Source: a virus. From it: 42,471 bases of DNA. The notes under the pieces are model-generated. The model saw nothing but the letters and a program-made list of their open reading frames with translations, did no database searches and was not told the DNA's origin. Shown here one piece after another: positions 6,254-42,471 of the stretch; the stretch's first letter is position 1; each line of letters begins with the position of its first letter. A program made the position numbers and the translations under genes. Location: positions 1 through 42,471 of IMG/VR virus record IMGVR_UViG_3300026094_000012; one strand, 5' to 3'.

Positions 6254-6261
6254 AATAAATA
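6254..6261 (+). promoter_or_regulatory. Late-type promoter box before gp6
   Basis: AATAAATAC sits 31 bases before the gp6 start codon in the only sizeable gap of the baseplate block, with an AAAGGAAAG ribosome binding site between it and the ATG. T4 late promoters carry TATAAATA around -10 with no -35 element. The same ATAAATAC core recurs before three other genes in this window. Confidence 0.65.
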
Positions 6262-24800: not shown

Positions 24801-25657
24801 ATGTTTCTTACGTTTGGGTTTCATTGAACGGTGAATTGCTAACTCCTAGTATCGACTATAGACTAACAAAATTTGAAAACTTTGTCCATATAACGCGACC
24901 CCTGAACACAAATGATAAAATACAGGTAATACATTTTGCAGCCAACAAGGTAAGCACGAAATTTGGATATAGAATTTTCAAGGATATCTTAAATAGGACC
25001 CACTACAAGAGGTTGAATGAAGATAAAACTTATGTGCTAGCAAACGATCTGTTTATAACAGATAGCGAGATTGAATTGCTAGATGCATCTGGTATAACAC
25101 AGCCAAGCAAAGAGCTTAACATCCCGGGCGTGATCTTTGTTGCTAATGAAAGAATAGAATATTTTGAAGTAAATGGAAATACTATTTCTCAACTGCGTAG
25201 AGGAACACTTGGAACAGGGGCTCCACAAACACATGTTGCTGGAACGGAAGCAATGGATCAAAGCGCAAGTGAAAGCATACCGTATACAGATGAAATGGTA
25301 ACGCTGGTCAAATTAGAAGACGAATCAACTAGAATTCTTCTTGACTTTATGCCTACAGACGGTGTCAACGAATTTGAAGTTTTTGTAGGCGGGCGCCGAC
25401 TCCGAAAAAATAGCATACAAAAATTTAATAGCAGCTTAGATCAAGACAGCCCAGAAGCAGATGAAACGTTACCACCCGAATTTACCATAGAAAATGGCAA
25501 CGAGTTGGTGTTAGCACAACCTCCTGTAGGAAACAGTAGGGTCTTAATTGTTAGGAAATTAGGAAAACTGTGGCAAAATTCGGGCGAACAACTGAGATAT
25601 TCAACTAACAGTATTGCGCAGTTCATCCGCAACGCTACAACCAGTTTACCTAAATAA
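9848..25657 (+). CDS. Giant virion protein (5269 residues), at the position of gp7 in T4
   Basis: One uninterrupted frame of 15.8 kb. It starts with SLLPRFFRTEVNKKFIQSTVDQL, an opening I associate with large structural proteins in this locus of marine T4-like phages. Visible modules: four carbohydrate-binding-like stretches of the form W-x-x-Y-x-x-G-x-x-V-x-(5)-Y-Y-R near residues 1442, 1701, 2192 and 3058; two FG-GAP-like beta-propeller segments with phased D-G-x-x-hydrophobic-x-V-G-A/S-P motifs (about 2102-2190 and 3134-3378); two Gly-rich repeats of the GGSGY..AP type (about 3760-3827 and 4112-4172); and, mainly after 4360, many beta-sandwich-like units with the pattern V-x-V-N-G-x-x-L-(5)-D-Y. 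No catalytic motif or membrane segment was recognised. Gene order (gp6, then this) matches T4 gp7, the wedge protein, but no sequence match to gp7 is claimed. It is probably a peripheral baseplate component with receptor-binding modules. Confidence 0.8.
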   Translation: MAYDNNQNEYPLPADGKNNRKSESLLPRFFRTEVNKKFIQSTVDQLVQPGVAEKLNGYFGRQISKAFSPEDNYVGDISASRENYQFEPAAVIKDELDNVTFYKDYNDYINQIAGFGGNTDNHDVLNSQEYYAWNPNIDWDKFVNFREYYWLPYGPQTVNIAGQSREVQSTIKVTLDDNIDNVSYKFSTEPFVQNPTLVLYRGQTYTFDLSVTGTPFTIKTKRTLDSSFDFDAGVTAQGTESGKITFSIGASTPEILYYVAENDINNSGIIQIKDIEENTEIDVEREIVGKTQYTTEAGFDLSNGMKVAFVGEVTPAKYSIGQWYVEGVGESIKLVSEEDLEIPASYSQDREIPFDSNAFDRLPFDNAAGFAATKDYIVINRASPDRNPWSRINRWFHRDVIERSAAINSESISIDQSARATRPIIEFDPGLKLFEFGTQNKQNVDLVDNFTTDIFSTIEGSVGYNVDGVQLVDGMRVLFTAEKDLRETGKIFKVSFINHRGERQISLVEEPDSDPLENETVLALGGVEFKGKMFFYNGVRWNLTQEKTSTNQQPLFDLFDDNGFSYGDEAEYSDTSFRGNKVFSYRQGSGVVDRELGFPIAYRNIENVGDITFDFDLLTDSFTYTEGNETIEQSTDVCVLKKFSMRTNFEFSNGWKKAPLPSTQDVLRQYVAAPAQTTFEIDTYEGVLDLQDLHAKITLNNQLQFEGIDYEITQDKSRTFVRFSNELAQGDVVVLRTRASNAKSSNGYYEIPANLEKNPLNNNIESFTLGQVNDHVSTIVTELEDFRGSFPGRNNLRDLGDVTPFGKKFLQHTGPINLSLYHLTSKDTNIVKALDFARREYSKFKRVFLQKSLELGFDGNPKEHVDLIFKELNRDKSINMPFYFSDMAPTSGEKRLTYNVFEQGNEFFALSETFSLDEPGAKSVTVYVNDSQLLFEKDYTFNEDGFCVINVPLVTGDRVDIYEYETTDGSYIPPTPTKLGMYPKYEPMLFVDNTYTVPTSVIQGHDGSIIKAFDDYRDALILELEKRIYNNLKVNYDSSIIDIHEFIGGEYRNTGIAKQNIDNSLLKDFAAWLSIVGDVDYTASDFHQRENSFTYNYSFMESPNGKRLPGFWRAVYKQAYDTDRPHTHPWEMLGFSEQPTWWVDQYGPAPYTSNNLLMWEDLEKGILAQPGKAKQVLEKYKRPGLVSHLPVDTKGNILSPLQSKYARNYVSSFTNSPFVFGDEAPTETAWRRSSEYPFSLFKSWVLNQPSKIIGLGYDRYRSVRNAAGQLVYKDTGRRIRLADLVFPNNSPNASQGNNSGTPNRSRVFNAGFVNFIADFLASNVLVNYSEYQQNLKSLSNQIGFKVGSFTDKSKINLILDSRTPLNQGNVFVPEENFEVILQTSSPLDIVSYSGVVIEKTPAGYLLRGYDTSNPVFTYYDYIETDRDPLVNVGGISESFVDWSENQRYASGSVVEFNGAYYRVTTSHTSTSTFDAEKFVRLPALPQVGGRSAIFRSTFDKSKTAEIAYGTLLDNIQQVVDFLLGYGEYLTDLGFIFENFNGEIEAVENWRLSAKEFMFWTTNNWSDGALLTLSPGAQKLQFSAENAVVDNIFDNFYDYSLVKADGTKIRQEFVNIGRDDANGFNISLKNTADGIYALKLPLVQKEHAILLDNETVFKDTIYDPEPGYRQERIRVLGYRAADWNGGLTIPGFIYDEAVVTEWQAWKDYSIGDVVKYKEFYYAAINKISGTEQFNASDWYRLESKPQPGLLTNLEYKTNQFADFYDLDTDNFDVDQQEIAQHLIGYQKRDYLANIINDDVSQYKFYQGFIQDKGTRNALTKLFDALSSANKDSLEFYEEWAVKAGQYGAADGFEEIEFLLDESQFRLDPQPILLTDTVPDNVTDLVYRQLPGNVFLVPQGYDSAPFPSKYTDDTVLRTAGFVRPEDVQFIVKNKIDILGLNSTEVKQGDYVWVTFEDQSWNVYKHVNTGFNVIEAQPDGDTAILFLNKLSNFQAGDIIGIYDVEELEGFYRVISSSLNKVVIAVEEPLSDEITNIQGAVTSFVSNRISDYNSANKYAENDIDTDELLWIDNSGDVENRWAVIKQDKAFDFADELSNPIAGQELSFGKSISADDANEYIVVGSPDSSQGKAYIYERENDGSTLTGTLNLKQTLEPIAGFDHGQSKFGSSVTISPDGRYVIVGAPNASRVKSAYKDDFDISEEYLRGSIVQFEENLYRARRTVKGQTDNVVFGTHDSASQIRQRLFDLYGDYASIPLITTGDFPLRDTDTDHILVRAPIDAYEGSQPGDTVYLNWNEISRNYLPEEPVPFFDVGLGDPLTLSIAGTRYTFTLDSTEAIEVVYGDRIFQGDRSGTIVFPLFESNKVSVILDLDSQPFIATEDQTVIITDESETITKYGNSTDVTISEIEGTSVHGLQDGDEVVITDVPNDGLTVIDEEFDNSNPAIPRNTVEQQGVKGLEPNRYYIKFANNDQIELYFDESLTNPVNGAIGFSGSAIPNGEFNGNIQKLNKPFDNFHPQIDRDFIVNTAHTIRRKVDEVFYIVDPLNIPNPQQGDSVTTATGNATVVYVKNELGRLVVYANNKNGVFEETGELFINDTFRIGRYTRPLHDSVDRATVLGGYWEIATSQNYNPNGRTTDIAAGLVIEDVKNGYTRTSSDPAEWFESAVRLPYKSSIQNVLDNPPEILPETDRPFEKESDLIRNLSYISQGIGGNITPETELDDRFVVRMPKNVSDKAEADFANAMSPDPQIGIWLNTIPDADGNRSDLSNKGFGNDPYDIITRVETPTDIWDGYIDYRVTAPELDFQPGDIIQDGGGAQAEVAFYQRDLNKARVYIKNSTGNDFNFGSRYYEGVAPTVTRLSKIVNGVPVEIGITESRQLGDNDIGKLAVFRHSENLPLSPELDLPVSPTFSDDISSFKTEFISGVEYHTWIEEFKPGQGRNPLLPSTANNDWEQVQNIPINTNRDASGFTREGAFFVYQLNLETDTYDLVNGYILPNRQDGRDLGYDLKLVQDGDLYKLVIGSNEDYRNDVSNNPGRGRLYFVLQGMDQNASYNWSVAKDPNYKGSYSETTDYYTNQVVVNEGLFYRALTNLQAEQFDSSKWRVLGDHIDFVGYVPNTTGVTIADDSFIDRLDTSDFGNVFDISSNGKILATTAEYPGLTRLVIYRLKDFRFELLQEIDEPADSRLFGSAIAVSNDGKLLAVGAPDSDSDKEYQGKVYIYKNNQGTFELSQTLESPNRETGEGFGAVLGFDGNQLVVTSAKGDILLDTTYDRYQNIDNSFESSYVNNSAGQLSAAETIFDSGFTRFQKSIIDSGVVFVYERLADSLVYGQRIEYDDFDSVDFGRNIVISNNNLYIGLPGLNVDTATSGKVVVYNREENARSWTLHRQPIDQIDISKFRGSFVYDTAENNLLSRLDILDPVAGKISGIAEQEITYKTYFDPATYNVGSSYATDKFTTWGEKQVGEVWWDLSTVKYVNYYQGSIIYSQAVWNTLAEGASIDVYEWVESTLLPSQWDSQALTSQGIRRGFTGQSKYGDEQYVVKQVYDSISESFREKYFFWVKQKRTVPNIENRNRSVLDIENIIRDPQSQGLRFVTILGNDRFVLYNCKSLVKNKDVAVNFRYWTIQDQTINIHNEYQIVTDGLSTSRPKADIEQKWFDSLIGQDNAGRPVPDPELSVKQKYGALNRPRQSWFVNKNEALKQVIERVNRVLLSQLTIDNLDISRLFENDPIPSQLLGLYDESVDTVEELDFVGTVKASTAELEPIIEDGTIVDVVIADGGRGYKQAPAIQVDGSGENAQLTATINNLGIVTNVEVVNGGTNYANNTAINVRPLSALVRNDSTINGAWSIYSYDNNSRSWNLATSESYRVEDYWSYVDWYAEGYSELTSIDFIVDDFYELNIINDNINDIVKVENVGSGGWILLQKTVNIDTPDYTINYRTIGRQNGTIQFLPALYTENNNEVELRIILETIRDNIFVDELALEYNKLFFSSLRYVFSEQNYVDWAFKTSFVKAKHNVGELEQRTTFRNDNLPSYEEYIREVKPYKTSIREYLSSYEKLDNTRSVVTDFDLSPFYNASSGLIESPAPKIENGVLTNINFDINDYPDKHWLDNFTYEIESIEIEDGGSGFAQSPLVVISGGGGTGAQARAFVGNGRIKDIEILDSGSGYTSAPSVTVEGVQDDNGTAPKFSVVLGNQKVRNLIVTQKFDRITAQNNITDTSVVEEFVSSGAELRFYLKWPMDLTRANINVFFDDIDALTSEFNYGNEKNNAKNHTRSVGFVELTQARPAGSVIRVEYSKNIDLLHAADRINTLYDGVEGQYGKDLGQLMEGVDYGGVEVRSFEFGQDSGWDSDPWYTSAWDTYDENFEDETFVTDGSTTKFKLSKPLEDNEQYNVYVNGIRIDDPNYDGSSKTYIAEDGSTVLALGNPNAIMPTITSQSSNYTSEVDDRGNLEYFVTIDNIEEFEEYYTDSISNPPDDQTVVIRKSSSDGSFLPQGTGFDTIVEGGNIAYGTATGLAAEDINIDGAGFVTPTTSKGPEELVPGQTLDTLDLKVYDRASDGGSLIASRNFTASEERNQVFPLDVLPHNVSSVFVKVDGVIIDNSDFTVDFIDRTVTLDSPLGLGQKVNILSMSGNGQQILDIDNFTGDGETQTFVTNVLYQDNITAFVTVDGTEAEVQLFETDDSFNENAGLVGIRFVVPPSANSFIYYAVYKSQDKTYSEVSIDQFEGDGSTTAFELSAQPFNKLPASHNVIVKVNNKILYPGYTQNFTVTSSREYPLDTDQFGPSSISADKINVYLNGVSLELLQDYRWDFSNTQVVLFDNIGVSGDNLEVYVLDDGEYSFSRNTVINIANVSGIFEIGETVEIGSQDSTVLSGTVKTFDNNILVLSEEIPALIELIDRDDTVNVTGLASAASADKLVSVRLQESGDTLILSETPNMGDLVQVYKFSNHDVQDIQMETRTNVLRTTLTVGTEDYFDNHRLNKGLVALRRPALDVSYVWVSLNGELLTPSIDYRLTKFENFVHITRPLNTNDKIQVIHFAANKVSTKFGYRIFKDILNRTHYKRLNEDKTYVLANDLFITDSEIELLDASGITQPSKELNIPGVIFVANERIEYFEVNGNTISQLRRGTLGTGAPQTHVAGTEAMDQSASESIPYTDEMVTLVKLEDESTRILLDFMPTDGVNEFEVFVGGRRLRKNSIQKFNSSLDQDSPEADETLPPEFTIENGNELVLAQPPVGNSRVLIVRKLGKLWQNSGEQLRYSTNSIAQFIRNATTSLPK

Positions 25658-25660
25658 ATA
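25653..25660 (+). promoter_or_regulatory. Late-type promoter box at the end of the giant gene
   Basis: AATAAATAC overlaps the stop codon of the giant gene and lies 28 bases before the next ATG. It is identical over the core and the following A to the box before gp6. It would let the fibre genes be transcribed independently of the 15.8 kb gene upstream. Confidence 0.65.
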
Positions 25661-30607: not shown

Positions 30608-30615
30608 GATAAATA
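30608..30615 (+). promoter_or_regulatory. Late-type promoter box before the third fibre gene
   Basis: GATAAATACT lies 34 bases before the ATG, in the short gap between two fibre genes. It is followed by an AGGGG ribosome binding site. The core ATAAATAC equals the other boxes in the window; only the flanking bases differ. Confidence 0.65.
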
Positions 30616-33259: not shown

Positions 33260-34969
33260 TTATAGATTTACCCAAGCACTACCATTGTAATACTGAAGCT
33301 GATTTGTCGCAGCTGGAGAAGTGCCGCTTTCCATTAATATTACCATGCCTTTTTCGGGAGTTGGAACTAGAGTGTTCCTAGCGGTGTCATCTGCCACTAC
33401 TGCAAACTTTGCGGGAACTCCAAACTCTGCTACGTTATTATTTGCGCTAAAATGAACTTCGTAGTTGTTTGGATCTTCTAGCTCTGTGTCGCTGTCTGGG
33501 TCTCCTGTATAAGTCTCCACAACAAAGTTGTTGCCTTGACCGACAAAACTCAGCACTCGGAAATCCGCAGTAGCATTAGTTTGTCCCAACAGTGTCAACT
33601 GCTTTTCAAATGCAGATTTTGAATCGAAAACTAGCTCTACATTGTCTGGATCACCCGTGCCGACTGTTCCTGCGGTTACTCTGTTAACAAGTATTTCACC
33701 AGTATTGCGAAGAATGACATTCGCTGTGCCTGGCCCAGCAAAATCCCCTACACCAACCGTCAGTGATTGATTAGCAATTAAATCTGACTGTGTTTCTAGT
33801 GTAGGTGTTACAATTATTGCCGAACTGTCGGCTGAATCTATACTATTGGTTAAGATGTTACCAGTCACATCGCCTGTAACATTACCTGTGACATCGCCTG
33901 TAACATTACCTGTGACATCACCTACGAAAGTTGCTGTCACCGTTCCTGATATGTTTTCACCGGGTATGTTGTTTGATACAGCGTCCACTAGCAAGGTGCT
34001 GTCATCGCCAAATACACTGCCTTCTAAGTCTCCGTCAACGTTTCCAGATACATTGCCTGTAATGTTACCTGTTACATCTCCTGTAACGCTGCCGGTCAAA
34101 TTACCAGTTACATTGCCTTGCACATCGCTAACAATATTTGCATTTGTGCCGTCTGTGCCTGGATTTAATATTATCGAACCGTCCTCTGATAAGACGTTAC
34201 CTGAAAGTGTTCCTATGTGGCTGCCTCGCAATACTCCTTCTACTGAGTCTACCAGCAGTGTGGAGTCATCTCCAAACACACTGCCTTTGACATCGCCCGT
34301 TACGTTCAATACAGCAGAGCTTTGCGGCATCCAATGGTTCATGCTTGCATGCCATACAAGTGCTTGTCCGTCTAACGGATCGTGACCTGCACCACTTGTC
34401 TTTACATCTAGCAGTGCATCTATAGACTGATTAGAAATATTTACAGTGCCGTTGGTTGCGTCTACCAACAGCGTAGAGTCATTTGCTAATACGTCACTGT
34501 TGATACTAACAGCGGAAACTTCTCCGTCGACAGTCAACCCGTTAGTAAAAATGTTGCGCCACCTGCGTGTCTCGCTGCCTAAATCATATTCGGTATCGGC
34601 TGTAGGAGTTATATTGCTGTCTACCTGCGCAGTAATAGTTACAGTGTCGGCTGTGTTATCACCAATGTCTATGTTGCCTGTAGCTACGACGTTTCCGTCG
34701 ATGTTTATATTACCTGCACCAATAATATTTTTAGAATTTAGGTTTAGGTCTTTTTGGAGTTGTAATTCGTCAGCAATACTGTCTGCTTGTAAAAAACTGT
34801 CTAGCAATCCCAATGTGTCGCTAGTAAGGAATATGCCGCCCTGTGTAACGCCATCTCCTATATAAAGTGCATCCGTGTCTGTAACGTATATGAGTTCGCC
34901 GTCTGCGAAAACTACGCCCCCGCCCGCGGTGCGTTCGGCTTCGGTGCCTCTTCTGATCTGTAAAGCCAT
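33260..34969 (-). CDS. Repeat-rich tail fibre or structural protein with a fibre-attachment N-terminus
   Basis: The 569-residue protein begins with LQIRRGTEAERT, then FADGELIYVTDTDALYIGDGV, an N-terminal module seen in many phage fibre and tropism proteins. The interior carries a four-residue repeat, Gly-(Asn/Asp)-Val-Thr, over about residues 275-385, in two tracts, and three copies of a D-D/N-S-T-L-L-V-D motif. It ends with YYNGSAWVNL, a common fibre ending. The repeat tract probably forms a thin beta-structured shaft. A GGAG ribosome binding site and a CATAAATAC late box lie upstream, so it is likely expressed with the virion genes although it is on the other strand. It converges on the + strand fibres at a shared terminator. 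Confidence 0.7.
   Translation of the reverse strand: MALQIRRGTEAERTAGGGVVFADGELIYVTDTDALYIGDGVTQGGIFLTSDTLGLLDSFLQADSIADELQLQKDLNLNSKNIIGAGNINIDGNVVATGNIDIGDNTADTVTITAQVDSNITPTADTEYDLGSETRRWRNIFTNGLTVDGEVSAVSINSDVLANDSTLLVDATNGTVNISNQSIDALLDVKTSGAGHDPLDGQALVWHASMNHWMPQSSAVLNVTGDVKGSVFGDDSTLLVDSVEGVLRGSHIGTLSGNVLSEDGSIILNPGTDGTNANIVSDVQGNVTGNLTGSVTGDVTGNITGNVSGNVDGDLEGSVFGDDSTLLVDAVSNNIPGENISGTVTATFVGDVTGNVTGDVTGNVTGDVTGNILTNSIDSADSSAIIVTPTLETQSDLIANQSLTVGVGDFAGPGTANVILRNTGEILVNRVTAGTVGTGDPDNVELVFDSKSAFEKQLTLLGQTNATADFRVLSFVGQGNNFVVETYTGDPDSDTELEDPNNYEVHFSANNNVAEFGVPAKFAVVADDTARNTLVPTPEKGMVILMESGTSPAATNQLQYYNGSAWVNL
33867..33914 (-). repeat. 24-base tandem repeat coding for Gly-Asp/Asn-Val-Thr units
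   Basis: Two perfect consecutive 24-base copies (33867-33890 and 33891-33914) are followed by a third, partly matching copy and preceded by a related sequence. On the coding strand they encode eight residues, made of two Gly-(Asn/Asp)-Val-Thr tetrapeptides. A second, more diverged tract with the same coding pattern lies at about 34030-34130. Length changes by whole units would keep the frame. Confidence 0.85.
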
Positions 34970-34999
34970 CGATTAACTCCTGATAACAATTGTTAAAAG

Positions 35000-35007
35000 T
35001 ATTTATG
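35000..35007 (-). promoter_or_regulatory. Late-type promoter box before the minus-strand fibre gene
   Basis: Read on the minus strand this is CATAAATACT, 38 bases from the ATG at 34969, with a GGAG ribosome binding site in between. It matches the + strand late boxes over ATAAATAC. This is the largest non-coding gap near the gene, and no TTGACA -35 box was noticed. Confidence 0.62.
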
Positions 35008-35023
35008 CCAAAAGGAGTATTAG

Positions 35024-35338
35024 CTATCGTCTCAGTTTTAGGAACTTTTGTGTGCGTTTGGTAATATCTTTTTTGACTTTTTCTGTATCTAATCTAAAGT
35101 CAACGTTTTGTATGACGTCTTGATATTCTTCGAATAAGTCGTCAAGAGAATTCTGTAATTCCTCTACAGAAGAATCAGAATTATTTTTAATGTTGATGTC
35201 CCAGACTTTGCCGTCAGTAAATCCCACTCGAACCGAATGAAGGTACTCAAGTGGGACTATACTGATTTCTATGTCTTCGAAGACTTCTGGCCAGTGATCT
35301 ATGACCTCTGGCGGCAGTTTTTTATTCCTCTGCGGCAC
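35024..35338 (-). CDS. Conserved hypothetical protein of T4-like marine phages
   Basis: A small acidic-then-basic protein of up to 104 residues. The core reads LPPEVIDHWPEVFEDIEISIVPLEYLHSVRVGFTDGKVWDINI, followed by a coiled, charged C-terminus (FRLDTEKVKKDITKRTQKFLKLRR). No catalytic motif is visible. The start is uncertain: a GTG at 35338 overlaps the upstream gene by 17 bases and has a poor ribosome binding site, while a CTG seven codons later (35317) is preceded by AGAGGA at good spacing and gives the protein beginning LPPEVIDHW. There is no ATG anywhere in the frame. The gene ends a cluster of four small genes before the late promoter of the fibre gene. Confidence 0.65.
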   Translation of the reverse strand: MPQRNKKLPPEVIDHWPEVFEDIEISIVPLEYLHSVRVGFTDGKVWDINIKNNSDSSVEELQNSLDDLFEEYQDVIQNVDFRLDTEKVKKDITKRTQKFLKLRR

Positions 35339-37883: not shown

Positions 37884-38969
37884 TTAAGACTGCTGCGCAG
37901 CCTTAATGTACCTGCCAAAGCGATCGTGGAATTCGTCAAAACACTCGATTTCGTCTGGGTCAATAGGCAGCGCATACTGAGTAAGTGCTAGCTTCATACC
38001 CATTACGACGAGTTCTGTTTCGAAGTTATCCATCGCAAAACGCAAAAAGTTATCAACCTTCTTGTCAAAAGTTTTTTCATTTTTATCTGCGCTTTCCTTT
38101 AGCTCGTAGCAGAGCGAAACAGTCAGGGAATACATAGCACTGATTTCTGCTTGTTTTAACTCTTTAACCTTTCCGTCGAGGATATCGGAGGGGTTAGGCA
38201 TAGACGCCGCTACTTTACGGTGTGCCATGAACTTTACAGCAAGGCCTTCACCAATTGCACCAGACACAAGGTCAGTGGTTGTGGATTCGTCAATATCGTC
38301 TTCGATGAGCTCGCTAACAAACGACCAGGAACGAGGCGTAGCAAACGAACGCGACGGGGACTTTGGATCAAAATCGTATAGATCCTTCTTGGAGAATGTC
38401 AAATAACCTACAACATCCTTGTGTACATTGTTAGTTACTGCCCACTCAAACCAGTCATCAAAGTTCACAGCCATCTCAAGGTGAACGAAACGGTTGGCCA
38501 ACGGAGCAGGCATGCGATAGGTTACACCCTTGTCCGCTTCGCGGTTACCTGCTGCTACAATATAGACATTGTCAGGCAGCGTGTAAGTGCCAACCTTGCG
38601 ATTAAGGATCAACTGATAGGCAGCAGCCTGTACAGCCGGAGCCGCACTGTTCATCTCATCAAGAAACAGCACAATGTTCTCATGCTGAGATGCCATTTCT
38701 TCATCTGGCAGCTCAGACGGCGGTGCCCATGACATAGTGGCCGCGTTTGAATCAAAGTAAGGAATGCCTTTGATATCAGTGGGTTCCCATAGACTCAGGC
38801 GTACATCAATGACGTGAGCGTTCATCTGATCGCCGATCTGATGTACAATGTCAGATTTGCCAATGCCCGGAGGCCCCCAAAGAAAAATTGGACGCTGTTT
38901 GCGCATTGCATGACCAATGCTTTTCTTTGCGCTGTTTGGGCTAATAGTGCGAGTTGCTACATTATCCAT
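37884..38969 (-). CDS. MoxR-type AAA+ ATPase
   Basis: The 361-residue protein has Walker A GPPGIGKS (residues 32-39), Walker B-like IVLFLDEMNSA with the Asp-Glu pair near 104-105, a sensor-1 VAAGN (138-142), and a probable arginine finger in APLANRF near Arg160. MoxR ATPases act as chaperones, often with a VWA-domain partner; the VWA/peptidase gene is the next gene. Domain order and length fit this family. A strong promoter lies 60 bases upstream with a GNRA-loop hairpin at the expected 5' end of its mRNA. Alternative roles, such as a general AAA protease subunit, are less likely because no protease domain is attached. Confidence 0.88.
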   Translation of the reverse strand: MDNVATRTISPNSAKKSIGHAMRKQRPIFLWGPPGIGKSDIVHQIGDQMNAHVIDVRLSLWEPTDIKGIPYFDSNAATMSWAPPSELPDEEMASQHENIVLFLDEMNSAAPAVQAAAYQLILNRKVGTYTLPDNVYIVAAGNREADKGVTYRMPAPLANRFVHLEMAVNFDDWFEWAVTNNVHKDVVGYLTFSKKDLYDFDPKSPSRSFATPRSWSFVSELIEDDIDESTTTDLVSGAIGEGLAVKFMAHRKVAASMPNPSDILDGKVKELKQAEISAMYSLTVSLCYELKESADKNEKTFDKKVDNFLRFAMDNFETELVVMGMKLALTQYALPIDPDEIECFDEFHDRFGRYIKAAQQS

Positions 38970-38999
38970 TTATCAATCCTCGTAGTATTTCAGTGCTAG

Positions 39000-39017
39000 A
39001 TAGTTATTGCTAACTAT
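39000..39017 (-). promoter_or_regulatory. 5'-terminal hairpin with GCAA loop in the MoxR mRNA
   Basis: On the minus strand a perfect 7-base stem (ATAGTTA/TAACTAT) closes a GCAA tetraloop of the GNRA class. The promoter box predicts a start at about 39017, so the hairpin would be the first structure in the mRNA. Hairpins at the extreme 5' end commonly protect mRNA from decay. Confidence 0.6.
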
Positions 39018-39023
39018 GCATAC

Positions 39024-39051
39024 ATAATAACATCTACACGCAGTGTGTCAA
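39024..39051 (-). promoter_or_regulatory. Sigma70-type promoter for the MoxR gene
   Basis: TTGACA (39051-39046, minus strand) and TATTAT (39029-39024) are 16 bases apart, the same spacing as the promoter of the VWA gene. One base of the -10 box differs from consensus. The gene starts about 50 bases downstream and has a GAGGA ribosome binding site. Confidence 0.8.
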
Positions 39052-39067
39052 GTAGATTTTGGCGAGA

Positions 39068-39448
39068 TTATTCTTTGTGTCTCGACATTGCTTTTGTAAT
39101 GCCGTATTTTCGAAGGTCGCCACTGAATAGGCTTAGTTCTAGTGCTTTCTTTTCATTTGTAACATAGATTGATCGAGGTGCTATGTAGTATGGGCAGTCA
39201 ATAAATTGGTCAAGAAAAATAATAACTTGTACGCTCATTGACATGTCCTTTGGATAAGGAATTTCATATGTAGTTATTTCGATCTGATTAAGAACATCAA
39301 ATCCGGCGTCTGTTAGGCGCAAACCGCCGCTCTTTTTATATCGAGTATTCTTCCACCACAGAGGGAGATATTCTTTGACCGCTGTGTCACTTACCGTCTT
39401 CCCGAGCTGTTTCAGGAAAATTTTTGTGTAAGTTTCCTTCCAGCTCAT
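39068..39448 (-). CDS. Conserved hypothetical protein
   Basis: The 126-residue protein has WWKNTRYKKSGGLRLTDAGFDVL (about 31-53), a winged-helix-like basic segment, and then strands and a hydrophobic stretch (VQVIIFLDQFIDCPYYI) before a Lys/Arg-rich end. I see no catalytic motif. A small nucleic-acid-binding role is a guess from the basic character and the phage context. Its start overlaps the previous gene's stop as ATGA, so both are translated together. It is followed after about 17 bases by the MoxR promoter. Confidence 0.62.
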   Translation of the reverse strand: MSWKETYTKIFLKQLGKTVSDTAVKEYLPLWWKNTRYKKSGGLRLTDAGFDVLNQIEITTYEIPYPKDMSMSVQVIIFLDQFIDCPYYIAPRSIYVTNEKKALELSLFSGDLRKYGITKAMSRHKE

Positions 39449-39735
39449 TGTTCGATGTCGAGATCGCCTGAAGTCAATCGATATACTGCAAAGAGTTCAG
39501 TGTTGAACATTTCGTTCAACTTTTTTGCAAGATTATGTGCGTGTCCAGGATTAGAGAAGCTTGTTTTTTTGTATTTCGGCCCTGGATAGTTAGTTATTGA
39601 ATTCAAGCTTTTGAGATTGAATGGTTTTTCATTATAAAACACAGCCCATATAGCTTCTGCGTCTAAAACCTGTTCTGCTCTGTAGGTTTTTTTATCTATA
39701 TGTTCTAACAACACAGTGGGTTTGGGCCTACTCAT
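39445..39735 (-). CDS. Conserved hypothetical protein under a probable translational switch
   Basis: This 96-residue protein begins SRPKPTVLLEHIDKKTYRAEQVLDAEAIWAVFY and has the pattern NYPGPKYKKTSFSNPGHAHNLAKKLNEMF near its middle. A compact alpha/beta fold with a basic patch is likely. I recall similar proteins in marine T4-like phages, without known function. The start is fixed by AGGAG nine bases upstream. This ribosome binding site lies in the loop, and the first two bases of the ATG in the stem, of a 9-base-pair hairpin, while a late-type promoter box lies just beyond it. Early translation is therefore probably blocked and late translation allowed. Confidence 0.68.
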   Translation of the reverse strand: MSRPKPTVLLEHIDKKTYRAEQVLDAEAIWAVFYNEKPFNLKSLNSITNYPGPKYKKTSFSNPGHAHNLAKKLNEMFNTELFAVYRLTSGDLDIEQ

Positions 39736-39766
39736 ATATGCGTGCTCCTATTAACTACGCATATAT
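39734..39766 (-). promoter_or_regulatory. Start-codon-hiding hairpin, T4 early/late switch type
   Basis: Perfect 9-base arms (ATATATGCG at 39734-39742 and CGCATATAT at 39758-39766) enclose a 15-base loop containing the AGGAG site; the downstream arm takes in the A and U of the start codon. Transcripts arriving from upstream genes would fold it. A transcript starting at the late box beside it would begin near 39758 and lack one arm. Confidence 0.68.
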
Positions 39767-39771
39767 TTATC
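39764..39771 (-). promoter_or_regulatory. Late-type promoter box beside the hairpin
   Basis: GATAAATA on the minus strand, 36 bases from the ATG. It overlaps the upstream arm of the hairpin by three bases. T4 late promoters start about six bases after the octamer, here about 39758. The base after the octamer is T instead of the C seen at the four other boxes. Confidence 0.55.
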
Positions 39772-39793
39772 TCTTAACATTTAAATACGTGGT

Positions 39794-40033
39794 TTATTTC
39801 CAGTCGGTTCCGCCGTCTAGCTTTACTTCCACTGTGTCCTGAGTGTTTGAATTTTGCTGGACAAATTTTTCTAAATCGCCCTCTAACCGCGACATCACTA
39901 TGCCTAAGGTATAGGCCAAGTTTTTGGCTTGAGTGATATCTAAGCGAACGTCTTTTGACCGACTGTTATCTGCGCTTTTTACCTGCTGAATAAATTGCTG
40001 TATAGATGACGTATTCAAAGGATCATTTTGCAT
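39794..40033 (-). CDS. Conserved small hypothetical protein
   Basis: Seventy-nine residues from the ATG at 40033. A TTG two codons upstream (40039) is an alternative. The sequence is helical (SIQQFIQQVKSADNSRSKDV, then DITQAKNLAYTLGIVMSRLEGDLEKFVQQ) with a short acidic tail ending in DGGTDWK. Two amphipathic helices suggest a small dimerising protein. It overlaps the previous gene by 11 bases in another frame. Upstream purine content gives only a weak ribosome binding site, so translational coupling is probable. Confidence 0.6.
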   Translation of the reverse strand: MQNDPLNTSSIQQFIQQVKSADNSRSKDVRLDITQAKNLAYTLGIVMSRLEGDLEKFVQQNSNTQDTVEVKLDGGTDWK

Positions 40034-40499
40034 TTGCAATACTCAAAGCTTGTTTCATTTCTATGTCTGTTTTGTAAGGACCCTGTGTTTCATAGCGTTC
40101 TACTGTAATTAATTTAGGACAAAAACTTTTGACCCATCCTTTGTCGAATCGCACAATATAATATCCTGCACAGTATAGACTTTTGCTTTTTGTGCTCTTT
40201 GTGAACAAAGGTAATTTTCTTGATACATCGTACATGGTGTTGTATGGAGTACAACTTGTGGGATAACCATGAACTATTTTTTCTTGTTCTTTTGGAGTTT
40301 TCTCAACCTGCGTAATTAAAAAGTTTTTGCCAAAGGTTTTTTTCAATGCTCTTTCGCTGTCGAAGTATTTGGTTCCTGCAGGCCCGCTGAACATGTATTT
40401 TTCTTCGTTGACGCTTAACGTGCCTACTCTTATGCCTTCATCCTCAACAATCCAAAATTTATTTTTTAGAATTTCTTTTGCTTTTAATTTTCCTGCCAT
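40023..40499 (-). CDS. Conserved hypothetical protein, basic
   Basis: The 158-residue protein starts at the ATG at 40499: AGGG six bases before it is a clear ribosome binding site, and it follows the RNase H stop by one base. A longer version from 40541 would overlap RNase H by 41 bases and is unlikely. The sequence has AKEILKNKFWIVEDEGIRVGTLSVNEEKYMF at its N-terminus and RKLPLFTKSTKSKSLYCAGYYIVRFDKGWVKSFCPKLITVERYET near its middle to end. It is basic, strand-rich, and has cysteines, so nucleic acid binding is possible. No named family recognised. Confidence 0.68.
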   Translation of the reverse strand: MAGKLKAKEILKNKFWIVEDEGIRVGTLSVNEEKYMFSGPAGTKYFDSERALKKTFGKNFLITQVEKTPKEQEKIVHGYPTSCTPYNTMYDVSRKLPLFTKSTKSKSLYCAGYYIVRFDKGWVKSFCPKLITVERYETQGPYKTDIEMKQALSIANAK

Positions 40500-40500
40500 G

Positions 40501-41490
40501 TCAACCCTCCATTGGATATCTTGCCTGCAGTGGCTCAGCATATAACTGTGCTTGATCTGCTATACGCTGCATGTCCCACTTAGCACAGAATTTCATTAGT
40601 CGCATGCCTACCTGTGACACGCTTTTAGGCTCTACTGATTCAACTGTATTGTTAATTATCTCACGAATTTCAGCCGGCTGTGCTGTTAGGTCGCAAAGTG
40701 TAACATTGCGTGTATAGTCATCAAGCACACGATGCTCTATACCTTCGTGGTCAATCCAGCGTTGCAGCATGAGATTGTTCCAATTGAAACCTTTTGTGTC
40801 TTTGTCGTCAAATGCTTCAAATAGGCCCACTTTGTTCTTTGTACCCTTCTTGCGCACGCCGGGGTATGCAGAGAAGACATTATCTGATGTGTCACCTCTC
40901 ATACATTTCTCAAACAGCAGCCAGTCAGGGTTAGGTGCGGGTTTCTCTTGCTTGGTTTTCTTGTCTATAACAGGATTGCCTTTGTCATCAAAGTAACCTT
41001 CGTGTGTTACAGTTGTATTTGTAACTCCGTTATACTGCTTTACATTAGGAGCAATCAGCTGAGCAAAGTCGCCGTCTGTGCTTATAATCACATGATTGTC
41101 GTCTGGGTGGCACTGTACCCATCCAGCTATTAGATCGTCTGCTTCTAGTTGCGGATGTCTAATAACTGTGCAATTGGTTTTGTCTGAGATAAAGTTCTTG
41201 AACTCGTCAAATATTTCCCAAAATACCTTGTCTTCTTCTTCTTCGCGCGGAGTCATCGCAGTTCGCGCGTCTTTTCTATTACGCTTGTATGGCTCGTAGA
41301 AGTCTTTGCGCCATGACCGACCTTCCAAACAAAACACGACATGGCATCCGTCAAAATCTTGCCAAGCTTTTCTAATACTGTTTAAGGTAATGTGCATGGC
41401 CATGCCTACTTTGGTGTCGATATCGCCGCGAACAACATGACGTGCTCTAAAAAAAGTGTTAGCAGTGTCTACTAAAATATATGTGCTCAT
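40501..41490 (-). CDS. rnh: T4-type RNase H (FEN-family 5'-3' nuclease)
   Basis: The 329-residue protein has all FEN-family metal-site motifs in order: VDTANTFFRAR (Asp8), FCLEGRSWRKDFYEPYKRNR (basic, about 53-72), QLEADDLIAGW (Glu116, Asp118, Asp119), IISTDGDFAQL (Asp139, Asp141) and MRGDTSDNV (Asp200, Asp203). T4 RNase H (305 residues) removes RNA primers from lagging-strand fragments and has 5'-3' exonuclease activity. Here it has an extra KKTKQEKPAP loop near 177-186. The start overlaps the stop of a 40-residue micro-gene (ATGA). The neighbouring genes on the same strand are unknown small proteins, so it forms a replication-linked operon with them. Confidence 0.92.
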   Translation of the reverse strand: MSTYILVDTANTFFRARHVVRGDIDTKVGMAMHITLNSIRKAWQDFDGCHVVFCLEGRSWRKDFYEPYKRNRKDARTAMTPREEEEDKVFWEIFDEFKNFISDKTNCTVIRHPQLEADDLIAGWVQCHPDDNHVIISTDGDFAQLIAPNVKQYNGVTNTTVTHEGYFDDKGNPVIDKKTKQEKPAPNPDWLLFEKCMRGDTSDNVFSAYPGVRKKGTKNKVGLFEAFDDKDTKGFNWNNLMLQRWIDHEGIEHRVLDDYTRNVTLCDLTAQPAEIREIINNTVESVEPKSVSQVGMRLMKFCAKWDMQRIADQAQLYAEPLQARYPMEG

Positions 41491-41609
41491 TCTGGATCCA
41501 TTCCTAGGCTTTCGGTGAGATCAAAGATATCTCTACCTTGTAAGTAATATATAGTAGCATCTCGAGGGCACATGAGCAAGAGTTCGCCGTCCAAGAGGAA
41601 TAAATGCAT
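41487..41609 (-). CDS. Micro-gene (40 residues) coupled to RNase H
   Basis: This small frame encodes MHLFLLDGELLLMCPRD, then a YYLQGRDIFDLTESLGMDPE tail. It fits the operon exactly: its ATG shares a base with the stop of the upstream 127-residue gene (TAATG) and its stop overlaps the RNase H start (ATGA). It fills what would otherwise be a 118-base gap. The hydrophobic N-terminus and acidic tail look protein-like. No family recognised. Confidence 0.7.
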   Translation of the reverse strand: MHLFLLDGELLLMCPRDATIYYLQGRDIFDLTESLGMDPE

Positions 41610-41992
41610 TAGGAAACTTCGCTTTTGCCTTTGTCAATAGGAACAACGTTAATATAACCCATGTCTCTATCCTTGTCTAGTCCCTCTTCTTCCAACATTT
41701 GCATAACAATAGTCTTGAACCACGCATCTACTATCTGTTCCTGAGATTCGCCTTGATATCCAGCATCCAAAAGTTGTTCTATAAATTCGTTGTTCCAGTC
41801 TAGCTCAAAAAACCCATTGCGAATATTGTCAGGATTTATCTGAGTATCTAGAACTGCTACCCAAGGTTCACCTTTATCTGTTGCTGCTTGTTTTTCGCGT
41901 TCTAATGTTTCTCTGCGGATGTCTTCTGCTGTTTTTTCTTCCGCAGGCGGCTGCTCTTCATTTGACTTTAGTTTTTTCCAAAAATTTAACAT
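41609..41992 (-). CDS. Conserved hypothetical protein
   Basis: The 127-residue protein has a charged helical N-terminus (LNFWKKLKSNEEQPPAEEKTAEDIRRETLEREKQAATDKG) and a folded rest with PWVAVLDTQINPDNIRNGFFELDWNNEFIEQLLDAGYQGESQEQIVDAWFKTIVMQMLEEEG. I recall similar proteins in marine T4-like phages. A helical acidic fold without a catalytic motif suggests an adaptor or binding protein. The ATG has AAAAGG eight bases before it, and the gene follows the queE stop by 48 bases. It may be part of the same transcript as queE and RNase H. Confidence 0.65.
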   Translation of the reverse strand: MLNFWKKLKSNEEQPPAEEKTAEDIRRETLEREKQAATDKGEPWVAVLDTQINPDNIRNGFFELDWNNEFIEQLLDAGYQGESQEQIVDAWFKTIVMQMLEEEGLDKDRDMGYINVVPIDKGKSEVS

Positions 41993-42040
41993 AATTTTAC
42001 CTTTTAAAATCCACTTTTGCGTAGTCGTTCTGTGGGGTCG

Positions 42041-42469
42041 TCATGTTCCCCAGGCGTTGCCGAAGAGTTCGATATGTAGTCTCGGCGTGTATCTCCATCC
42101 CCTCTGCATTGCGAGTTTGGCAACCCTGTCTGTGTTAAGCTCATACTCCTCAGATCGTCCGCCGAGCGGCATGATGTAGACTGGACACTCGATGCCTGCT
42201 TCTGTAAATTGCGCAGTAGCAGCAGTAACTTCATCAACATCCCTTTCATCAGCAACCACAAACTTAAAGTACTGGTTGCTATTAGGAATGTCATGATATT
42301 GCCCAGCAATCTCAGGCCTAATCGCATCTGACCAAGACTCTCCCGAAACGGTGAGCTTTGGTGAACACGAAAAGGTAACATGTATTCTGTCTTGAGTTCT
42401 GAGCCAATGCTCAAAATCTGGCTGTAACTTCTGTGTTGCATTTGTTTCAATGGTGACATGTTTAAGGTC
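42041..42469 (-). CDS. queE: QueE-type 7-carboxy-7-deazaguanine synthase, 3' part only
   Basis: The visible 142 residues run off the right edge and are the C-terminal half of a radical SAM QueE. Landmarks: VTIETNAT, HVTFSCSPKLTVSGESW, YFKFVVADERDVDEV, YIMPLGGRSEEY and the closing YTPRLHIELFGNAWGT. The cysteine cluster that binds the iron-sulfur centre would be upstream, outside the window. QueE makes the deazaguanine ring needed for queuosine, or for deazaguanine DNA modification in phages. Only a search of the adjoining sequence for queC, queD, folE and a DNA transglycosylase can tell which. A GTG at 42259 is internal and not the real start. Confidence 0.92.
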   Translation of the reverse strand, partial: DLKHVTIETNATQKLQPDFEHWLRTQDRIHVTFSCSPKLTVSGESWSDAIRPEIAGQYHDIPNSNQYFKFVVADERDVDEVTAATAQFTEAGIECPVYIMPLGGRSEEYELNTDRVAKLAMQRGWRYTPRLHIELFGNAWGT

Positions 42470-42471
42470 CT

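Follow-up and report, generated by a model that had tools for sequence, protein, structure and literature searches.

How could a phage leave a gene silent in RNA that reads through it early in infection and express the same gene late? The question is raised by the start of a 96-aa gene on the minus strand of a 42,471-base virus record (the window, meaning the whole stretch of DNA that was analysed), where a perfect inverted repeat encloses the ribosome-binding site and a late-type promoter box lies at the upstream arm. A sequence-only reading had proposed an early/late translational switch of the kind known for T4 gene e. Here, we compare this site with its relatives and conclude that the gene very probably carries a temporal translation lock, a hairpin that would form in read-through RNA and be avoided by a late start.

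Gene and surroundings

Up to about 33.2 kb, the virion genes of the window are on its plus strand; its minus-strand block contains genes for a MoxR-type ATPase, a 5′-3′ exonuclease and a metallopeptidase/VWA-like protein, as well as one that is tail-fibre-like. The features at the site are as follows.

39445..39735, minus strand: controlled gene, 96 aa (MSRPKP...), with its ATG at 39735-39733
39068..39448, minus strand: next gene, 126 aa (phrog_15638), overlapping the 96-aa gene by 4 nt
39794..40039, minus strand: upstream gene, the source of read-through in the proposal, with its stop 58 nt before the ATG of the 96-aa gene
39764..39771, minus strand: T4-type late promoter box GATAAATA, with a predicted RNA start at about 39758
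39757..39766, minus strand: hairpin 5′ arm ATATATGCGT, absent from the predicted late RNA save its last two bases
39745..39749, minus strand: Shine–Dalgarno sequence AGGAG, within the 13-nt loop (39744-39756)
39734..39743, minus strand: hairpin 3′ arm ACGCATATAT, extending into the start codon and co-varying with the 5′ arm

The 126-aa gene is probably co-transcribed with the 96-aa gene. The MoxR-type ATPase gene is preceded by a strong sigma-70-like promoter at 39051-39024 on the minus strand (TTGACA-16-TATTAT, with TG before the second hexamer), which is probably early. For the 96-aa protein, we found no significant match in Pfam, PHROG or solved structures and no homing-endonuclease match. 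Its AlphaFold model has a pLDDT of 91; a fold search with this model returned no PDB match and recognised no DNA-binding fold, and in BFVD only two uncharacterised phage proteins matched.

Hairpin and promoter box

The minus-strand sequence across the site, GAGATAAATATATGCGTAGTTAATAGGAGCACGCATATATGAGT, contains an inverted repeat of 10 perfect pairs, one more than the nine first read there, with the perfection of the repeat upheld. As had been claimed, AGGAG lies in the loop and two bases of the start codon, the AT of ATG, belong to the 3′ arm. The late-type box is present at the hairpin, as had also been noted; rather than lying just beyond the repeat, it shares three bases with the start of the 5′ arm. 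T4 geometry, in which the last A of the box is at −6, places +1 at 39758 as proposed, a position that coincides with the arm edge only roughly, being two bases short of the inner end, so that eight of the ten bases of the 5′ arm would lie upstream of +1.

The 42-nt hairpin segment has a predicted energy of −13.1 kcal/mol (z −5.05), matched by none of 200 shuffles. The window holds five distinct perfect inverted repeats with arms of at least 9 and loops of at most 20, and 12 when nested repeats are counted, compared with 1–6 in block shuffles. A perfect repeat of this size is by itself not rare in the window, and comparison with relatives was therefore needed. A search of Rfam matched no curated family, giving just one sub-threshold chance match, and a DNA similarity search in the phages collection gave no match.

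Conservation and covariation of the leader

Relatives of the 96-aa protein occur in at least 600 candidate stretches of viral contigs and, among cultured phages, in PA5oct and its kin, Phosso, Atu_ph07 and SCTP-2; the gene is conserved in jumbo-phage relatives of PA5oct and Atu_ph07. Eighty relatives (the best of the at least 600) were chosen by protein alone, with upstream DNA playing no part. A leader resembling ...GATAAATATATRCGTA...GGA...TACGYATATG was found in 79 of these best 80, and the 5′ arm is kept as TATRCGTA, again in 79 of 80; the box is unchanged except in two, which have GCTAAATA. Conversely, when viral contigs were scanned with the box-and-arm pattern GATAAATATATRCGTA alone, nearly all of the 80 matches fell at this gene. 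Wider searches gathered 282 distinct leaders. An extra scan, with a query built by eye from several family members, found two loci, used only for their upstream sequences, which carry no box.

The loop varies among relatives in both sequence and length. The observation of the repeat is made certain by where it is placed and by the roughly 200 distinct relatives in which it is conserved. Some relatives have none (L079, L436, L136, L163, L225, PA5oct, Atu_ph07 and Phosso). L079 and L436 keep the late box and have lost the ribosome-site hairpin, and both have a palindrome, AATATACGTATATT, upstream. The cultured phages PA5oct, Phosso, Atu_ph07 and SCTP-2 also carry the box with no hairpin over the ribosome site.

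The sole variable stem position (R/Y) was tabulated in the 192 relatives with the arm, the pairing register being fixed by the other positions with the variable one excluded. It reads GC in 118, AT in 62, GT in 11 and AC in 1, so that the arms agree with each other in 180 of 192 (Fisher p about 1e-37 with relatedness ignored), and the 11:1 imbalance of GT over AC is what RNA pairing tolerates. On protein trees, the R of the 5′ arm changed at least 17 times (128 rows) and, in a later set, at least 30 times. Supported branches give just 6 independent contrasts, of which a mean of 3–5 go the same way and 0 the opposite way (median p not below 0.06); they are few because the 96-aa protein is short and its trees are poorly resolved. 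In an alignment of 61 diverse leaders, 26 cells had changed on both sides, and the covariation score was unmatched in 500 shuffles. MAFFT had put some 3′ arms two bases off because the arms are nearly palindromic, and these counts were re-checked by hand. Further compensation is seen as AGTACGTA/TACGTAC in L387, L388, L391 and L393, with wobbles elsewhere too. A lack of conservation or covariation of the arms had been named in advance as grounds for rejecting the proposed switch; the arms turn out to be both kept and co-varying. Pairing by itself would not require so constant a stem sequence, and something besides pairing may act on it.

Late promoters and sigma factor

The box belongs to a wider set. 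In the window, NATAAATA occurs five times, always 16–37 nt before a same-strand start codon; the other four occurrences, mostly before virion-type genes, are listed here.

6254-6261, plus strand: NATAAATA box
25653-25660, plus strand: NATAAATA box
30608-30615, plus strand: NATAAATA box
35000-35007, minus strand: NATAAATA box

In three long relatives, NATAAATA boxes again precede virion genes, together with some internal chance matches. We interpret the NATAAATA boxes as a set of late promoters of the T4 type. A late sigma factor of the gp55 type (phrog_234, phrog_12791) is encoded in 10 of the 12 long records, among them those of PA5oct, Atu_ph07, Phosso, SCTP-2 and a relative of 146 kb that has the hairpin; the two records with no match, from IMG/VR, are 237 and 135 kb and may be incomplete. 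No sigma gene was identified in the window, a 42-kb fragment. The description of the box as late-type is thus borne out by its membership of this set and by the sigma gene in relatives. As at T4-type late promoters, which use the gp55 sigma, the box stands before the starts of virion genes and relatives encode a gp55-type sigma; the first box base, mostly T in T4, is here free (A, C, G or T).

An approximately 80-aa gene (MSEDK/MSDEN; L099, L024, L026 and other loci) has a late-box leader, AATAAATAAAGTACGCATATATA, with a 3′-arm-like TACGCATATAT; no hairpin of its own was found in this leader.

Predicted folding of read-through and late RNA

Both RNA versions were folded in silico, as the sequence-only reading had suggested, and the start is predicted to be blocked in read-through RNA and free in late RNA. 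Across the leaders of 265 relatives, compared with dinucleotide shuffles, the mean z was −2.63 for read-through RNA (71% with p ≤ 0.05) and +0.42 for late RNA. For other late genes in the same phages, the read-through leaders gave −0.93 (35 tail-fibre-like genes), +0.99 (19) and −0.16 (39). The cost of opening the ribosome footprint was 11.3 kcal/mol in read-through RNA versus 3.9 in late RNA, with a difference above 3 in 94% of leaders, whereas other late genes reached this in 21–46%; the same scoring gave 16.8 versus 4.2 for T4 gene e. For the window itself, opening costs 7–15 kcal/mol in read-through RNA and 0.7–7.5 in late RNA, varying with the length folded because AGGAG is in the loop, and the worst-case gap is 1.5. 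Two cruder measures did not tell this gene from other late genes: opening of the Shine–Dalgarno sequence and AUG only, with values of 4.4 (early) and 2.3 (late) against 3.5 and 1.8 elsewhere, and two-strand duplex energy against shuffled flanks (mean z −0.37, no signal), for which segments were cut at +1 and the arms truncated.

These results bear on whether the arms might be kept by chance, or merely as parts of the promoter and the ribosome site. The 5′ arm does overlap the box, the arms are AT-rich and about five such repeats occur in the window; against this, TATRCGTA is not carried by other late promoters of the same phages, the arms co-vary and the predicted folding contrasts with that of other late genes. 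Barring an alignment artefact, the covariation refutes this explanation, to which we give almost no credence.

As a possible origin of read-through RNA, a same-strand ORF lies upstream in 281 of 282 relatives, usually with a gap of 31–63 nt, and no terminator-like site was found on the minus strand within 38900-42471. Such RNA might start from a candidate sigma-70-like minus-strand promoter at 41679-41651, although promoter-like matches are no commoner than in shuffles.

A second leader architecture

A second group of leaders has no TRCGTA arms. In these, a segment just before the box pairs with the stretch that starts at the end of the box and continues through the Shine–Dalgarno sequence, which puts the 5′ arm ahead of the box and leaves the box within the loop. 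In L247, ATACTCCTACATTT pairs with AAATGTAGGAGTAT around CATAAATA; other such pairings are CGTAGTTT/AAACTACG, CCTATATTTT/AAAATATAGG and TCCTACAT/ATGTAGGA. The contigs are, by our impression, presumably mostly freshwater. A script classed 62 leaders as lacking the first architecture, a few first-type variants among them, and 23 of these reached p ≤ 0.05 in the shuffle test. A chosen set of 21 second-type leaders, from a group picked partly by eye, had a mean z of −2.9 for read-through RNA and +0.9 for late RNA. The second architecture appears to keep the same logic, with late RNA starting after the 5′ arm, a weaker claim than that for the first.

The neighbouring tail-fibre-like gene (MALxxRRGT) sometimes also has an anti-Shine–Dalgarno arm before its late box, ACTCCT/AGGAGT in the window (34969-35025, minus strand) and CTCCTAGGTG/CACCTAGGAG in L183. 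Such leaders may represent the second architecture at a gene other than the 96-aa one.

In L027 and other class I leaders, a third site that resembles the arms, YRCGYAG (for example TGCGTAGATAACT), lies 16–20 nt before the box. It is present in 49 of 203 leaders, about a quarter, versus 0.6% in shuffles, and is only loosely tied to the arms (24 of 49 discordant). Such a repeated site invites the reading that the inverted repeat serves as an operator in the DNA, at which a phage or self-encoded protein would bind TRCGTA over the late promoter and repress transcription. I-TevI offers a precedent, with an operator over its own late promoter (PMC2988022), and the unusual constancy of the arm sequence points the same way. 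The evidence on pairing points elsewhere: the arms are concordant in 180 of 192 relatives whereas the third site is discordant in about half, GT far exceeds AC, and the freshwater clade loses TRCGTA yet retains pairing over the ribosome site; nor was a DNA-binding fold recognised in the 96-aa protein model. We therefore consider an operator in place of the lock unlikely. An operator might exist alongside the lock, given the over-constant stem and the upstream arm-like site.

The constant stem could also reflect recognition at the RNA level. In T4, GGAG in a loop is a RegB-type target, and GGAG is found in the loop here; the hairpin might then be what a translational repressor protein or a nuclease recognises, whether RegA/RegB-like or autogenous, and early RNA would be affected no less than late RNA. 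That explanation would sit poorly with a loop that varies in sequence and length, with a promoter whose position leaves late RNA without the stem and with an alternative architecture that has no similar loop, and we hold it to be more doubtful still than the operator.

A tentative interpretation of the variety among leaders, which we put forward with low confidence, is that the 96-aa gene is time-critical enough to have independent lock designs (the arm fused to the box, the freshwater box-in-loop form and an extra upstream element perhaps serving as a second lock or operator), the lock being rebuilt or replaced while the timing is kept.

Proposed mechanism

Sequence and comparison show the box, the arms and the way these co-vary, the gap in predicted folding between the two RNAs, and a sigma gene encoded by relatives; all of these favour the temporal translation lock. 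Early and middle RNA polymerase would arrive from same-strand upstream genes and copy both arms; we infer the existence and the timing of this read-through RNA, as well as the strength of the resulting repression and the reason for which the gene must be late. The hairpin of this RNA would hide the ribosome site, with AGGAG in the loop and the AU of AUG in the stem, so that little 96-aa protein would be made. Late in infection, polymerase with a gp55-type sigma would initiate at the GATAAATA box overlapping the 5′ arm. The resulting RNA, whose start we infer at about 39758, would keep only two bases of the ten-base 5′ arm, could not fold and would be translated. In the literature searched, we found no published infection transcriptomes for PA5oct-like phages.

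Comparison with known systems

In T4 gene e, the long early RNA folds over the ribosome site, and the late RNA is without the 5′ arm (PMC3014915). The hairpin and late-box layout found here matches that of gene e, as the sequence-only reading had proposed for an unrelated gene. In the T4 e leader, TTTTATAAATACCTTCTATAAATACTTAGGAGGTATTATG, the first of two boxes overlaps the 5′ arm, like the main layout here, and the second is in the loop, like that of the freshwater relatives; because this one leader shows both layouts, the finding belongs with the known mechanism. There are differences: gene e encodes lysozyme and has two boxes, whereas the gene studied here has one box, encodes an unrelated 96-aa protein that is not a lysin and belongs to a different phage lineage, in which hundreds of uncultured phages keep the arrangement and its arms co-vary.

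The same mechanism operates at T4 soc, 49, I-TevI, I-TevII, I-TevIII and segB and at Aeh1 mobE (PMC3014915, PMC2988022), where the ribosome site is likewise sequestered in read-through RNA and freed by a late promoter; the genes concerned there serve the capsid, recombination or homing as endonucleases, whereas the 96-aa gene shows no homing-endonuclease match. Thus, the gene e-type mechanism is already known, and what appears to be new is its occurrence at the 96-aa gene. A trick of a handful of T4-group genes would thereby be shared by uncultured jumbo phages, a very large group, and the comparisons behind this go deeper than any we found described for T4; a conserved, unnamed protein is also flagged as one that phages would avoid making early, a lead to its function.
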